DNA from: Acidithiobacillus sulfuriphilus
Lineage (GTDB): Bacteria; Pseudomonadota; Gammaproteobacteria; Acidithiobacillales; Acidithiobacillaceae
Assembly: GCF_003721225.1 (NCBI RefSeq)
Contig: NZ_RIZI01000153.1
Location: forward strand, 1 to 23,424
DNA: 23,424 nt
Reading direction: 5' to 3'
Part shown: one piece after another, positions 727-11,210 of the stretch
How the letters are laid out: every line of letters begins with the position of its first letter
Position numbering within the stretch: the stretch's first letter is position 1
Notes under the pieces: model-generated
The model's input: the letters and a program-made list of their open reading frames with translations, nothing else
Told to the model about the DNA's origin: nothing
The model's database searches: none
Translations under genes and position numbers: made by a program

Positions 727-3570
727 TCAAACAATCCGAAACACCTTCATCACCTCATCCCCCAAATGATTGATCACCTTCACCGCGATCCGCCCCGACT
801 TGGGCTTGTCGAAGGGGCGGGAGGTGTCGCTGTGCAGGGTGGCCCAGGCTTCTTCGTTGATTTCGGCTTTTAGGGTGGTTTTTAGGGCCTTGTAGGGGTC
901 GTTGGCGCCGAGGAAGTAGGCTTGGCGGACGAAGAAGGATTCCATGTTGTAGTCGGTGTCGATGAACCAGCAGGCGATGCCTTCGGGGCCGTCGCTGCGG
1001 ACTTCGCCGGTGTTGGGGTGGAAGACGTCGACGCCGTTGACCTTGACGCGCACCTGGCCGCCTTCAACCTCCAGGATGTCGATGTCGGGCTCGCCGAAGA
1101 TGACGAAGAGGTTGCCCTTGCCGGTGTTCTTGAGGTCTTCGGCCATGTGCAGGTCGGCGTTCATGCGTGCCTTGAGCACGGGGATGCGGCCGAGTTTGCT
1201 GAAGTCGGAGCTGTGCACGTCATAGTTGAAGGCGCAGGCGACGAGCACGTCGAAGCCCGCTTCCGCGCACTCGCGGGCGGCCTCCACCAGATCGGGCTTG
1301 TTGACCGTACCGAACTCGGGGCCGATGAAGATGCCCGCGCGTTTTTCCGTGCCACCTTCGTCGTAGCGACCTTCGGCGCAGATCAGATCGCCGGGCCAGG
1401 GGGCCAACGAGGTGAAGGTGATCTTGTCTTCCTTGTGGGCCTGTTGCACGCCGGCGGTCTTGAGGTTTTCCAGGATCATCCGGACGAAGTCGCGCTCTTC
1501 GCCGTAGGCGCCCTTGTCCTCGCCAACGCCGTCCAGCAGATCGTCATCCTCGTCCACGCCCAGCACGCGGTGGGGCGAGAGACTCTCGACGGTGAAGGGG
1601 CCGGCGACGCGGACTTTCTTCTTGTCTTCGTAGGGTTTGTCGTAGAGGTACTCGAATTCGGCCTTGGCGGCGATGGAGGCGTCCATTTCCTTTTGGCGGG
1701 CGATGCGGGCTTGCCACCAGTCGGCGTGGAGTTTTTTCGCGGCATCCGGCCACTTGGGATCGGCGTCGCGGGGGATTTCCCATTCCTGCCATACCGGTAG
1801 GAGCGGCCCATGGCCGCGACCAGCGTCGGTGTTGCGGCCATGGGCCGCTCCTACAGCGAGGGCCGCGCGCAGGGGCTCCAGGGTTTGCTGCCATTTTTCC
1901 CAGATGACGTCGATCTCGGCGTTGTTGGCGATGGATTTCAGGGTGATATGGGGTACGCGCTCGTAGACGAAGCCGTGGCGGAGGTCGCCGTGGGTGGGGT
2001 GGCTGGAGGATGCGCTGCGGGTGACTTCGGCTTCCTTGATCTGGCCGTCGCGGCTGTCGGCGAGCAGGTAGTAGGGGTAACGGGCGCCCATGATGCGGGC
2101 TCGTGCCAGGGCCAGGGCGACGCGGGAGGTGTCGAGGGTGATCCAGCGGCGACCCCATTGTTCGGCGACAGTGGCGGTGGTGCCGGAGCCGCAGGTGGGG
2201 TCGAGGACGAGGTCGCCGGGGTCGGTGGCCATGAGGATGCAGCGTTGAACGACCTTCGTCGAAGTCTGGACAACGTAAATTCGTGGGTCGCTGTATTGGC
2301 CCGTAATTGTGTCAACCCATGTGGATGCGAGCGGCTGAGCCGGATAGTCACGGAAAAATCTCACGAACCGAACAGAGTTAGTGCTCTCATGTATTCGATT
2401 CGCCTTCGCTAAACGCGACATTCCCATCGGAGATGTCGTCCAGAATCTAGTCCCAGGTTTAAACTTCTTACCTTGAAATTCGAAATCACATTTGCCTTCA
2501 CTGTAATCGTGGCTGCTGGTGAGATCGCCCACCGAATAAGCTGTTGAGGGATTTGGTTGCTCATGTTGCGCAATTTTTCGTCGTTCTCCGTTTTCGTTTT
2601 CAGTGTAACTGTAAAACCCAAGGTCACTCTCGTAGCCCTTCTCCACGAGCACACTCCGATACTTCGCAGTCAGGCGGTTCTTCGCAAACCAGATAATGTA
2701 ATCGAAGTTATTTGCGAGGAATTCGGAGGTAAGTGAACTCGTCTTTTTAAAAGAGATGAGAGCCATGGAGTTATCTTCCCCAAACACCTCATCCATCACC
2801 GCCCTTACCCGGTGCACATTCTCATCCCCAATCTGCACAAAGATCGACCCGGAGTCGGTCAACAAATCCCGCGCCACGGTCAACCGATCACGCAGATAGG
2901 TCAGATAGGAATGAATGCCGTCGCGCCAGGTGTCGCGGAAGGCCTTGACCTGTTCCGGTTCGCGGGTGATGTGCTCGGTATTGCCGTCCTTGACGTCGCG
3001 GCTCGTCGTGCTCCACTGGAAATTGCTGTTGAATTTGATGCCGTAGGGCGGATCGAAATAGATGCACTGCACCTGCCCGCGCAGTCCTTCGCGCTCGGCC
3101 AGGCTGGCCATGACTTGCAGGCTGTCGCCGAGGATCATGCGGTTGGCCCAGTGGGCGTCGTGCTGGTAGAACTCGGTCCTGGCGTTGTCGTCGGGCAGAC
3201 CGTTGAAGTCGGCGAAGAGGTCGATCTGCTCCTCTCCCTGGCGGTCGGCGGCGCTGCGCCGCAAAAGGTCGTCGATGAGCACCTTGGGGTGGATCTTTTC
3301 CTGGATGTAGAGGGGCGGGGCGTTGACCACGAGGTCCGACCAGTCTTGCTGGTCCTTGCCGCGCCAGACCAGTTGCGGGTCCAGGTCGCAGTTGCGCTGG
3401 GTCTTTTCCTCATCCAGTCCGGCGGCGCCACGCGCATAGGCGATGCGCACGGGGGCTTGCTCATCCTGCTTCATCACCGACTGGTATTCCGCGGTGGGGA
3501 TGTTTTTGCGGGTGGCCTCACCGTGGGTGAGGGTAGTGACGCTGAGTGTGGGGATGGATTTCTTGGCCAT
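727..3570 (-). CDS. mod: Type III-like restriction-modification DNA methyltransferase subunit (Mod)
   Basis: This 947-residue protein is a site-specific DNA methyltransferase of the beta (N6-adenine/N4-cytosine) group. The catalytic DPPY motif is at 173-176 and the S-adenosylmethionine-binding motif DPTCGSGTT at 457-465. That order, with a target-recognition region between them, is typical of type III Mod proteins. It should pair with the res product encoded upstream and confer sequence specificity. I chose the ATG at 3570 (MAKKS) over an upstream in-frame Met at 3633, because the latter lies inside vapC and 3570 follows the vapC stop by 13 nt, with AGGACG about 9 nt upstream. The long C-terminal half (about 600-947) is rich in acidic and aromatic residues, as in large Mod homologues. 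Two oddities stand out. Residues about 270-410 are encoded by AT-richer DNA than the flanks. Residues about 573-591 are encoded by a REP hairpin. Both leave the frame open. Confidence 0.9.
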   Translation of the reverse strand: MAKKSIPTLSVTTLTHGEATRKNIPTAEYQSVMKQDEQAPVRIAYARGAAGLDEEKTQRNCDLDPQLVWRGKDQQDWSDLVVNAPPLYIQEKIHPKVLIDDLLRRSAADRQGEEQIDLFADFNGLPDDNARTEFYQHDAHWANRMILGDSLQVMASLAEREGLRGQVQCIYFDPPYGIKFNSNFQWSTTSRDVKDGNTEHITREPEQVKAFRDTWRDGIHSYLTYLRDRLTVARDLLTDSGSIFVQIGDENVHRVRAVMDEVFGEDNSMALISFKKTSSLTSEFLANNFDYIIWFAKNRLTAKYRSVLVEKGYESDLGFYSYTENENGERRKIAQHEQPNPSTAYSVGDLTSSHDYSEGKCDFEFQGKKFKPGTRFWTTSPMGMSRLAKANRIHESTNSVRFVRFFRDYPAQPLASTWVDTITGQYSDPRIYVVQTSTKVVQRCILMATDPGDLVLDPTCGSGTTATVAEQWGRRWITLDTSRVALALARARIMGARYPYYLLADSRDGQIKEAEVTRSASSSHPTHGDLRHGFVYERVPHITLKSIANNAEIDVIWEKWQQTLEPLRAALAVGAAHGRNTDAGRGHGPLLPVWQEWEIPRDADPKWPDAAKKLHADWWQARIARQKEMDASIAAKAEFEYLYDKPYEDKKKVRVAGPFTVESLSPHRVLGVDEDDDLLDGVGEDKGAYGEERDFVRMILENLKTAGVQQAHKEDKITFTSLAPWPGDLICAEGRYDEGGTEKRAGIFIGPEFGTVNKPDLVEAARECAEAGFDVLVACAFNYDVHSSDFSKLGRIPVLKARMNADLHMAEDLKNTGKGNLFVIFGEPDIDILEVEGGQVRVKVNGVDVFHPNTGEVRSDGPEGIACWFIDTDYNMESFFVRQAYFLGANDPYKALKTTLKAEINEEAWATLHSDTSRPFDKPKSGRIAVKVINHLGDEVMKVFRIV
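1797..1854. repeat. REP doublet (REPIN-like hairpin) inside mod
   Basis: Two 24-nt arms (1797-1820 and 1831-1854) are inverted repeats of each other with one mismatch, separated by a 10-nt spacer. The left arm begins GTAGGAGCGGCCCATGGC. The same arm recurs identically at 11139-11162, so this is a dispersed repeat and not chance symmetry. REP sequences in proteobacteria often share the GTAGGAGCGG start and are mobilised by RAYT transposases; no RAYT gene is visible here. The element is read through in frame by mod and adds about 19 residues rich in Gly, His and Arg. Confidence 0.88.
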
Positions 3571-3583
3571 GGGCTTTACCGTC

Positions 3584-3955
3584 CTAGTGTGCGACCGGGC
3601 AGGCCAGCCGCAGCGCCTCTGCCACAACGGCAAGGCGCTTGTCTCTGGTCCACAGGGTTGCGTCGTCAGCCAGGGCAGTGGCGGCCAGCAGGTGGACGTC
3701 GATATAACCGATGCCGCGCCCCATCAGACGGTGGCGCTCGATGTAGCCCAGGGCCTCGCCTGCGGTGGCGACGGGGGCGGCGGGCAGATTACCGAGCAAC
3801 GCCAGCACTTCTGCGCGATTGGCGAGGGTGCCGCAGGCAAGTTCGCCCAGAATGAATGGATGCATCAGCACCTGCCCGGCTTCCAGCGCCACAGCCAGCA
3901 TCGAATCGTTGCGGCGCAAGTGATCGATCCAGACGGAGGTATCGACCAGGATCAT
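3584..3955 (-). CDS. vapC: VapC-family PIN-domain toxin ribonuclease
   Basis: This 123-residue protein begins MILVDTSVWIDHL, the classic start of a VapC PIN domain. The four acidic residues expected to hold the catalytic Mg2+ are present: D5, E38, D86 (YIDVHLL) and D105 (TRDKRL). VapC toxins cut RNA, commonly tRNA or rRNA, when their antitoxin is degraded. The target of this one cannot be read from sequence. Its start overlaps the end of vapB by 4 nt (ATGA), which implies translational coupling. Its stop is only 13 nt before the mod start, so toxin and methyltransferase probably share a transcript. Length and catalytic residues are intact, so it is likely functional. Confidence 0.92.
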   Translation of the reverse strand: MILVDTSVWIDHLRRNDSMLAVALEAGQVLMHPFILGELACGTLANRAEVLALLGNLPAAPVATAGEALGYIERHRLMGRGIGYIDVHLLAATALADDATLWTRDKRLAVVAEALRLACPVAH

Positions 3956-4526: not shown

Positions 4527-7500
4527 TCAGGACACCAAGCCCGCCAGCATCCGCTGGAACTCGGCGTCGATCTCGTAGACCTCCGTAAACTCGGCAAAGG
4601 CCCAGCGGCCATAGCTGCCCAGGCGGTTCACGCCGGGCAGCCAGTGGGTTTCCATGGCGGCCTTCTTTTCCTTGGCGTCTTCGCGGCGATAGCCCTTGAT
4701 CTCGACGACGAGGTTGAGCAGGTCATGGTCGCCGTGGCCGTCGTCGATGCGCACGATGAAATCCGGGCGGTAGCCGCGCAGGACGGAGCCGTAGCGATAG
4801 GGCACTTCCAGACCGAGGTTGTGGTTCTTGACGTAGGCGCGCACCCGGGGATGGGCCTCGGCCACGCGGCAGAATTCGGCTTCCCAGTCGCTGTCGAGGA
4901 TGACCCAGTTGAGCTGGCAACGGCGCGGGTCGGTCTGCCAGCGCTCGGTCTTGGCGGTGTTGAAGTTGACGTGGGCGCTGCTGCCCGTGGGGTTGTAGGG
5001 GTCGAGCACGGCCTGGATGGGTTTGCTGCCGACCATGGCGCGGGTGATGCCGGCGGTAATGCGCTCGCAAGCCATGTCGGCCAATTCCGGGTAGAGGATC
5101 TGCGCCGGGTAGGTGCCGCCCGTGCAGCGCAGGCAGGTGTCCAGCCACTGCCCGGTGATGCGCTTGAGCTGGCCGAAGAGGTAGAGCTTGGGTGCCGCAA
5201 AGGGATCGCGCCATTTGCTGTAGAGGAGACGATGGGTGAGGCGATAGAGCAGGGAGGCTGGGCGTAGATCGGCCGGGCTTTCCAGGCTCAGGTCCACGCT
5301 CTCGCCGATGATGCCGGCGTTCTTGGTGATGGAGGGGCCGACCAGATCGGGGGTGAGCTCCAGCACCGAGTCGGCGGTGAACTCGGCGCTGAGGCGTTCC
5401 CCGGGCAACTCCACCCGATAGCCCTGCACGCGCGGGAAGCGGATTTCCAGGGCGTCACGCTCGGGGCGCACGGCCTTGACCTGAATGGTTTCACGGGGCG
5501 GCTGGGGTGGCGCGACCACCGGCTTGGCGGTGAAGTCGAAGGGAATGCCCAGCACATCGGCATATTCCACGTTGAACAGGCCTTCTTCATTGAGGTCGTA
5601 GGACTGGCGGCGCAGGGCGCGGCCGATGACCTGTTCACAGAGCAATTGGGTGCCGAAGGCGCGCACGCCCAGCACGTGGGTGACGGTGTTGGCGTCCCAG
5701 CCTTCGGTGAGCATGGAGACGGAGACGACGCAACGGATGGACTCGCCCAGGCGCCCCGCCTTGCCGACGGTGTTCATGACCTCGCGCAGCAATGCCTGAT
5801 CGCTGAGATTTTCTCCCCCCTGACGATCGCCCGTGCGCTCGATGATTTCGCGGCGGAAGCGCTCGATTTCGTCGGCGGCCATGCTGCGGAACTGCTCGTC
5901 CAGGGCCTCGCCGGATTCAAGCTGCTCGCTGTCAATGAGGAGGGTCCTGGGGCGGCCGAGGGGCTTGCCGTCCTCGTCGAAGTTGCGAAAGAGGGGCAGG
6001 CGGCCATTCTCCAGGGTGGTGGAGCCGTCCTCGTTCCGCCGCTGAAAGCCGGAGAGGTAGTCGTACACCAGCTTGGAGGTGGCGGTGTTGTTGCAGACGA
6101 CGATGAAGCAGGGAGGCACCCGGATGCCGGCCCTTTCCCAGAGTTCGTAGGTTTTTTGATAATGGCCGTAGAGGGCTTCCAGGGCCGTTATCAGGCGGGT
6201 GGGCAGCTTGAGGGGGTCCAGTTGCGCGGCCTTGCCCCGGCCCTTTTTCGGCATCTCCGGGCGGATATGCTCCCAGAGATCACGGAATACCGGCATTTCC
6301 CCACCGGGGATGTTGTCGGCCACCGGCACCCGCGGCAGCTTGACGATACCGCACTCGATGGCGTCCATCAGCGAAAAGTCGCTCATGGTCCAGGGGAACA
6401 AGGTGCCTTCGGCATAGCCGGAGCCGCGCAGAAAGAAAGGAGTGGCGGACAGGTCGATCACCCGGTTCACGCCCAGTTTGCGCTGGACCGCCTCCAGGCC
6501 GGAGATCCACAGCCGCGCCGCCTCGTTGTTCTGCTCGGCCTCTTTCCGCTCATCGCCCTTGAGGCCCTCCTCCTCCGCGTGGGGTTTTTCGCGGTAGCAG
6601 TGGTGGGCCTCGTCGTTGATCACCAGGATGTTCTTGAGACCCATGAGCTCGGGCATGACCCGCTGGATCATCTGTCCTTCGCTCTCCAGGGTGTCGAGGG
6701 GATCGCCGCCCCGCCCCTGGAGGAGCAGGCGGCCGCCCTTGGAGAGTTCCATGCGCTCGCGCAGCTTGAAGGCGTGGTAGTTGGTGATGACGATCTTGGC
6801 CCGCTCCAGATCGCCGAGCATGTCGCCCGGCACCAGTTCACGGCTGGCATAGTAGCTGTCGGGATCGTTGGGCTGGAGCACACGCAGGCGGTCTTTGATG
6901 GTGATGCCCGGCGCGACGACCAAAAAGCCACGGGTGAACTTCTTGCTCTGGGGCCGGCGCACCGCGTTGATCGTCTGCCAAGCGATGAGCATGGCCATGA
7001 CGGTGGTCTTGCCGGCGCCGGTGGCCAGCTTGAGGGCCAGACGCAGCAAGTCCGGGTTGGCGTCGTGCTTGGCATTGGCCAGATGTTCCAGAAAGCGTTC
7101 CCCCGTCTTGCCCAGTTGCGGCGCCACCTCGCTCAGCCAGATGGCCGTTTCCGCCGCCTCGATCTGACAAAAGAACGGCCGGATACTGCTAAAAGGGTGC
7201 TGCCGCCAATGCTGCAGCAGGCGGGCCGTTTCGGGGGTCACCCGCCAGTCATGGGGGTTGGGCAGGGCGCGCCACTGGTCCACCTCCAGCCGTAGCGCAT
7301 TGATGACGGCCGTGTGGGCGTATTGCTGCTCCTGGGTAGAGAGCCCTGCGTCGAAGAGCAAGGCCGCCTGACCGCCCCCGCCCTTTTGCTTCCGGGGCTT
7401 GGGGATCGGGGTGATGAATTCGGCGCGCCGCCGGGTCTCCACGACCCGCTGCGTCGGCTGCCCGGCGCTATCCAGTTCCCAGTGACGGTGGGGATACGCA

Positions 7501-7544
7501 TAAGGCGAATTGAGGATCGGTTGCGCGAAGAAGGCGTTATTCAT
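4527..7544 (-). CDS. res: Type III restriction endonuclease subunit, DEAD/DEAH helicase-nuclease (Res)
   Basis: This 1005-residue protein is an ATP-dependent superfamily 2 translocase/helicase with a C-terminal nuclease. Visible motifs in order are Walker A ATGAGKT (about 173-179), the DEAH box INDEAHHCYR (about 308-317), SATPF (about 362-366), TEGWDAN (about 613-619) and the arginine-finger motif QVIGRALRR (about 637-645). A PD-(D/E)XK nuclease site, YRPDFIV (about 925) with EIKGY (about 948), lies near the C-terminus. This is the standard layout of type III Res, which cleaves DNA together with Mod after translocation or diffusion between sites. The start at 7544 has only a weak GGA site. 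All motifs are intact. Unusually, its partner mod is not the next gene, because vapBC and an antitoxin relic lie between them. No clear terminator follows the stop. Confidence 0.92.
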   Translation of the reverse strand: MNNAFFAQPILNSPYAYPHRHWELDSAGQPTQRVVETRRRAEFITPIPKPRKQKGGGGQAALLFDAGLSTQEQQYAHTAVINALRLEVDQWRALPNPHDWRVTPETARLLQHWRQHPFSSIRPFFCQIEAAETAIWLSEVAPQLGKTGERFLEHLANAKHDANPDLLRLALKLATGAGKTTVMAMLIAWQTINAVRRPQSKKFTRGFLVVAPGITIKDRLRVLQPNDPDSYYASRELVPGDMLGDLERAKIVITNYHAFKLRERMELSKGGRLLLQGRGGDPLDTLESEGQMIQRVMPELMGLKNILVINDEAHHCYREKPHAEEEGLKGDERKEAEQNNEAARLWISGLEAVQRKLGVNRVIDLSATPFFLRGSGYAEGTLFPWTMSDFSLMDAIECGIVKLPRVPVADNIPGGEMPVFRDLWEHIRPEMPKKGRGKAAQLDPLKLPTRLITALEALYGHYQKTYELWERAGIRVPPCFIVVCNNTATSKLVYDYLSGFQRRNEDGSTTLENGRLPLFRNFDEDGKPLGRPRTLLIDSEQLESGEALDEQFRSMAADEIERFRREIIERTGDRQGGENLSDQALLREVMNTVGKAGRLGESIRCVVSVSMLTEGWDANTVTHVLGVRAFGTQLLCEQVIGRALRRQSYDLNEEGLFNVEYADVLGIPFDFTAKPVVAPPQPPRETIQVKAVRPERDALEIRFPRVQGYRVELPGERLSAEFTADSVLELTPDLVGPSITKNAGIIGESVDLSLESPADLRPASLLYRLTHRLLYSKWRDPFAAPKLYLFGQLKRITGQWLDTCLRCTGGTYPAQILYPELADMACERITAGITRAMVGSKPIQAVLDPYNPTGSSAHVNFNTAKTERWQTDPRRCQLNWVILDSDWEAEFCRVAEAHPRVRAYVKNHNLGLEVPYRYGSVLRGYRPDFIVRIDDGHGDHDLLNLVVEIKGYRREDAKEKKAAMETHWLPGVNRLGSYGRWAFAEFTEVYEIDAEFQRMLAGLVS

Positions 7545-11134: not shown

Positions 11135-11210
11135 ACCGGTAGGAGCGGCCCATGGCCGCGACCTGCTCGTGGGCACCAGCCATTGGGGTCACGGGCATAG
11201 CCTGCTCTGC
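11135..11210. repeat. REP element with decayed partner arm, uvrA-rplQ spacer
   Basis: Bases 11135-11163 are identical over 29 nt to 1793-1821 inside mod. A looser inverted partner lies at 11188-11210; allowing gaps, about 18 of 23 positions pair with the first arm. The element therefore looks like an older, degraded doublet. It sits between two convergent gene ends, the usual place for REP sequences. Confidence 0.78.

Follow-up and report, generated by a model that had tools for sequence, protein, structure and literature searches.

An in-frame REP doublet in a type III-like DNA methyltransferase gene of Acidithiobacillus sulfuriphilus, at a linker likely to tolerate unrelated repeats

Introduction

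In-frame GTAG- and CGTC-tagged REPs have been described in many genes, often with roles in DNA repair or metabolism, where REPs or REP dimers encode about 20–30 residues and some species have only one tagged gene (PMC3733652). At roughly matching positions, the recB genes of two Xanthomonas species contain REPs that differ from each other, and flexible linkers were put forward as a reason for such tolerance (PMC3733652). The Rickettsia palindromic elements (RPE) are also in-frame palindromic repeats in protein genes (cited in PMC3733652), and REP doublets are reported to act as units (PMC3116915). Intragenic REPs have so far been scattered cases, so that tolerance and function could not be separated.

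Here we analyze a REP doublet inside mod, a gene in a 23,424-nt stretch of A. sulfuriphilus DNA that we refer to in its entirety as the window. An earlier note on this DNA called the doublet domesticated and its coding position unusual. The latter description needs qualifying, given the many genes in which intragenic GTAG/CGTC REPs have been described (PMC3733652).

Restriction-modification locus

The genes considered are:
727..3570, minus strand: mod, encoding a type III-like DNA methyltransferase (947 aa when read from the ATG); the TTG ORF extends to 3633
4527..7544, minus strand: res, BPTD_3080 family restriction endonuclease (NF046055, 1366 bits, cut-off 800), serving as the control gene from the same operon

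Judged by profile matches, mod and res are a predicted type III-like restriction-modification pair. The mod product read from the ATG (947 aa) was identical to database protein P0001 and matched PADLOC MTase_III PDLC03632 over its full length (1462 bits, residues 4–946). Its methylase domain, N6_N4_Mtase (PF01555), spans residues 167–487 in ATG numbering, or 188–508 in the TTG ORF. The EcoP15I Mod (4zcf) was related to the window's Mod over profile positions 120–466. Solved Mods aligned with its N-terminal half only, and the C-terminal 454 residues had no solved chain at E ≤0.3 and no Pfam family. The neighboring res gene that characterizes type III systems was recognized by both NF046055 and Pfam ResIII, and a Res ORF of >800 aa was present at 70 of 80 relative loci (the best 80 of 585).

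Two other genes lie on the minus strand around mod. A PIN-domain (VapC-like) gene at 3584–3955, between res and mod, scored above the cut-off in Pfam and below that of the NCBIfam VapC model. At 3–689, an ORF cut by the contig end matched PADLOC PD-Lambda-5_A (236 bits, residues 2–201), with its last 28 residues beyond the matched part.

REP doublet within mod

The elements of the doublet and its linker are:
1797..1820, plus strand: REP arm 1, GTAG-tagged, 24 nt, from inverted-repeat analysis and genome matches
1821..1830, no strand: doublet spacer, 10 nt
1831..1854, minus strand: REP arm 2, inverted, 24 nt, one mismatch relative to arm 1
1789..1860, minus strand: mod codons L571–W594 (ATG numbering), the linker harboring the doublet
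11139..11162, plus strand: lone intergenic REP arm in the uvrA/rplQ gap, identical to 1797–1820

The doublet occupies 58 nt (1797–1854) and is GTAG-tagged, lies in the mod reading frame, and introduces no stop codon into the 968-aa TTG ORF (727–3633, minus strand). Its arms are 96% complementary, and a wider inverted repeat around them (1788–1863) is 85% complementary. Sequence analysis agreed with the earlier description of two near-perfectly inverted 24-nt arms around a 10-nt spacer, and residues 573–591 (ATG numbering) were indeed those fully encoded by the doublet. The identical arm noted between uvrA and rplQ was recovered over all 24 nt. The element has the form of a GTAG-superfamily REP, with a palindromic unit of 20–40 nt and GTAG at one end, as well as that of a REPIN, with two inverted REPs as one unit. 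Mod-sense RNA from 1780–1870 folded at −59.4 kcal/mol (z −5.2), and 0 of 200 shuffles were equally stable. We therefore classify 1797–1854 as a REPIN-like REP doublet, read in frame within mod, whose arms belong to a GTAG family specific to the genus.

REP family in the genome and genus

The window's genome (G000) is a 2.81 Mb draft assembly in 194 contigs. The arm pattern GTAGGAGCGGCCNNNGGCCGC had 40 matches there (25 forward and 15 reverse) and none in a backwards control, bearing out the expectation of further genomic copies. Across 40 genomes including G000, the arm occurred 27 times in G001, the sole other genome of the genus among those searched (71% complete), and 0 times in the remaining 38. 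The 40 arms of G000 grouped into 30 clusters, 10 of which were inverted pairs; six of these spanned 72 nt, while the mod pair spans 58 nt.

The family is mainly intergenic. Using a simple codon score trained on the window's genes minus mod, we found strong coding signal on both flanks in 1 of 30 clusters, which was the mod copy alone (0.46 and 0.51). Three borderline clusters (L013, L021, and L037) scored > −0.1 on both flanks, but their arms lie ≤17 residues from one end of an open frame and are therefore better read as beside genes; three of the 30 clusters had no candidate frame. Judged by codon score over the 40 arms and 30 clusters, no other intragenic copy in this genome was convincing.

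The earlier suggestion of a RAYT gene was correct as to its presence, since NF047646 gave a full-length match at G000:C18:7841–8287 (194 bits) to a gene that had escaped Pfam PF01797. Its flanks did not carry the same REP. Another GTAG REP family, with the inverted repeat GTAGGTCGGGTTAGCG.., adjoins the RAYT gene (L144 1962–2045), and GTAGGAGC was absent from the 3447-nt RAYT locus. In this draft of 194 contigs, this RAYT and the window's REP accordingly do not form a REPtron, in which a RAYT is flanked by its own REP. A partial Y1_Tnp at G000:C4 (24.5 bits) was rejected as a RAYT because it matched only positions 13–58 of 121.

Linker length in homologous Mods

We scored 8000 candidate proteins sharing most words with Mod and listed the best 120; genome loci were collected with an insert-free relative, P0002, as query (best 80 of 585). 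With three relatives' loci, these 120 proteins and 80 loci made an alignment of 203 Mods. The conserved residues L571 and W594 are separated by 7 residues in 173/203 and by 22 in the window's Mod, a net gain of 15. The clean gap of 19–21 residues predicted for homologues was thus not found, nor do the flanks join directly, as had been proposed. The two anchors enclose 66 nt, comprising the 58-nt doublet and 8 nt of host sequence, and comparison with the usual 7-residue linker indicates that the host linker lacks ~13 nt. The peptide itself was absent from the other 119 of the best 120 homologues listed.

The linker sits ~85 residues past the methyltransferase domain, and the alignment confirmed the site of the doublet as a length-variable linker. 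Residues 548–640 exceeded the modal length by at least 8 residues in 38/203 Mods, made up of 24/120 listed proteins (P0001 included) and 14/83 loci. Among the loci retrieved with P0002, 12/80 (best 80 of 585) had at least 8 extra linker residues. A second variable linker near residue 737 had longer loops in 15/203 Mods, with inverted repeats scoring 12 or 13 in L095 and L113. Length variation at residues 47 (37/203) and 841 (10/203) was rejected as repeat-derived, being mostly shared non-palindromic subfamily features.

Several Mods vary in other ways. Two relatives in the family, L139 and L140, have a linker of a different kind at the doublet's position, with a 38-residue insert that is neither palindromic nor a repeat. 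P0005 has 71 extra linker residues that copy a linker segment, an internal duplication, and the P0027 Mod has 146 extra residues near residue 841.

Repeats in the linker of relatives

In nine of the 12 insert loci (best 80 of 585), the insert was a tagged and/or palindromic repeat adding 8 to 34 residues; the other three (L075, L101, and L129) had no clear palindrome. At site A (571–594), L081, L092, L082, and L095 hold four GTAG...CTAC palindromes, each with its own sequence, while L060 holds a CGTC...GACG palindrome, so that with the window there are at least six distinct repeats at this site at the DNA level. Site A′, about ten residues downstream, contained CGTC/TGTC-type repeats in L090 and L099, a GTAG-tagged repeat in L093, and another palindrome in L125. 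Inserts seen at the protein level only, such as VGWAPPT..GGHCPPY, RVRHAHQ.., and PSP..GEG, are putative repeat translations.

Insertion points vary by several codons, with 3 to 24 host nucleotides on the left, and all six elements examined at site A start on a codon boundary (frame 0). For the five GTAG elements, TAG bars one of three frames, and the third frame of the window's element is open. Finding 5/5 GTAG elements in a single one of the two frames they could use is no more than suggestive.

Inserts were multicopy in their own genome at 7/9 loci, two of them weakly, with all counts including the mod copy. The L090 repeat had 62 matches (control 0), that of L082 had 13, and that of L092 had 198. 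L095 gave 96 strand matches at ≤3 mismatches (control 0), though many places are counted twice since the repeat is a near-perfect palindrome. With a loose pattern, L081 had 15 matches against 9 in the control, 7 of the 15 being the exact arm, and degenerate patterns gave four matches each for L060 and L099 (controls 0). L093 and L125 had no second copy in their own genome at ≤3 mismatches.

Partner-gene control and phylogeny

Across the 70 loci that have Mod as well as Res, inserts of at least 8 residues, at any position in the protein, were present in 26 Mods versus 3 Res. Inverted-repeat scores of at least 12 were found in 9/60 Mod insert rows (7/83 sequences) and in 0/7 Res insert rows (70 sequences), with a background of 1/400 random windows in each case. 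Paired by locus, palindromic inserts were present in five Mods (L081, L082, L092, L095, and L113) and no Res (sign test, p 0.031); the paired set omits L060 and L125, neither of which has a Res ORF of >800 aa. The contrast between Mod and Res is real, and rests on five loci.

A FastTree phylogeny was built from the 189/203 rows of at least 850 aa with both hotspot regions excluded; 42 of its 180 inner branches are open. The 36 insert-bearing rows among the 189 are scattered and require 28 changes, which is an upper-side figure and not an insertion count because alike inserts occur in distant rows. GSVGAGLPAI-type inserts with similar flanks were present in P0014, P0056, P0059, and P0097, which lie far apart on the tree; their sequences suggest that this type may have spread by gene exchange between alleles rather than by new insertions.

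Explanations for the hotspot

We consider it likely that a genus-specific REP doublet was inserted in the mod linker and that this region is a tolerance hotspot for unrelated palindromes of the local genome. The occurrence of different repeats in one linker region among relatives makes it look like a natural insertion hotspot, and tolerance is, we infer, its likeliest cause. The linker without a repeat would have come first, with a REP doublet of the genus-specific GTAG family, presumably mobilized by a RAYT, entering it later. Repeats would reach many places and selection would spare those at permissive linkers, Mod probably still working with its insert. Retention of the doublet would follow from the lack of a stop in the used frame, junctions that are in frame, and a linker tolerant of extra residues: 58 nt were gained and ~13 host nt lost, and the net 45 nt, or 15 codons, keep the frame.

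Restriction-modification genes move horizontally, and together with the similarly flanked GSVGAGLPAI-type insert in rows distant on the tree, this would fit a few original insertions that then spread mainly via recombination among mod alleles. We regard this as unlikely, since site A holds at least six different repeats at the DNA level, several inserts match multicopy repeats of their own host genome, and the window's REP is genus-specific. It is also quite unlikely that palindromes from each genome are recurrently gained at this C-terminal linker with the resulting diversity altering the enzyme, through hairpin effects on expression or through domain spacing, though if true this would mean that repeats drive variation in a defense enzyme. 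Domestication proper, in which selection keeps the inserts because linker length or an mRNA hairpin alters Mod activity, stability, or translation, could draw on the hairpin (−59.4 kcal/mol, z −5.2), on the repeated gains in Mod with none found in Res, and on the speculation in PMC3733652 that REPs lying in repair genes may have functional effects. We hold it to be very unlikely: the inserts are highly diverse in length (8 to 34 extra residues), sequence, and repeat family, they are absent from most relatives, and their peptides are alike in frame alone. The doublet described in the earlier note is in frame as stated, but shows no sign of a selected function that would make it domesticated.

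Less probable still is that repeats preferentially target the mod linker DNA, guided by its sequence or structure, so that the hotspot reflects targeting and not tolerance. All six site-A elements do share frame 0, though for the five GTAG elements TAG already bars one of the three frames, and TnpA-REP cleaves at CT beside the REP (PMC8266576), a dinucleotide found immediately 5′ of GTAG in the window's mod. However, we rejected CT as a target signature because it precedes GTAG in just 1/40 copies of this genome. CGTC-type repeats and other palindromes also enter the region, the 3 to 24 host nucleotides on the left place the insertion points several codons apart, and the neighboring sites A′ and B were also hit.

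Comparison with known systems

While intragenic REPs are known, a hotspot for multiple repeat families in one enzyme is apparently unreported: we found it nowhere in print, nor any paper whose title concerns mod repeats. The main text of PMC3733652 does not contain "methyltransferase", "methylase", or "restriction", and its supplementary gene table may list a mod case. The Mod family, its insert-free relatives, and the partner-gene control constitute a natural insertion set in which tolerance, targeting, and function are testable. Selfish repeats add new peptide to proteins, and where Mods differ in length the DNA should be checked before changes in specificity are inferred.

The mod doublet resembles the REPINs described in PMC3116915 and PMC8266576 in its inverted GTAG arms, multicopy occurrence, and the presence of a RAYT in the genome, but differs from them in being intragenic and in that the genome's RAYT is flanked by another REP family. 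Like the RPE, as cited in PMC3733652, it is a palindromic repeat inserted in frame in a protein gene. The RPE, however, are families specific to a lineage and spread over many genes within a single genus, whereas in Mod a mixture of repeat families occurs within a single gene family. Compared with the REPs described in PMC3733652, what distinguishes the present case is the entry of many unrelated repeats, in many bacteria, into one linker region of one gene family.
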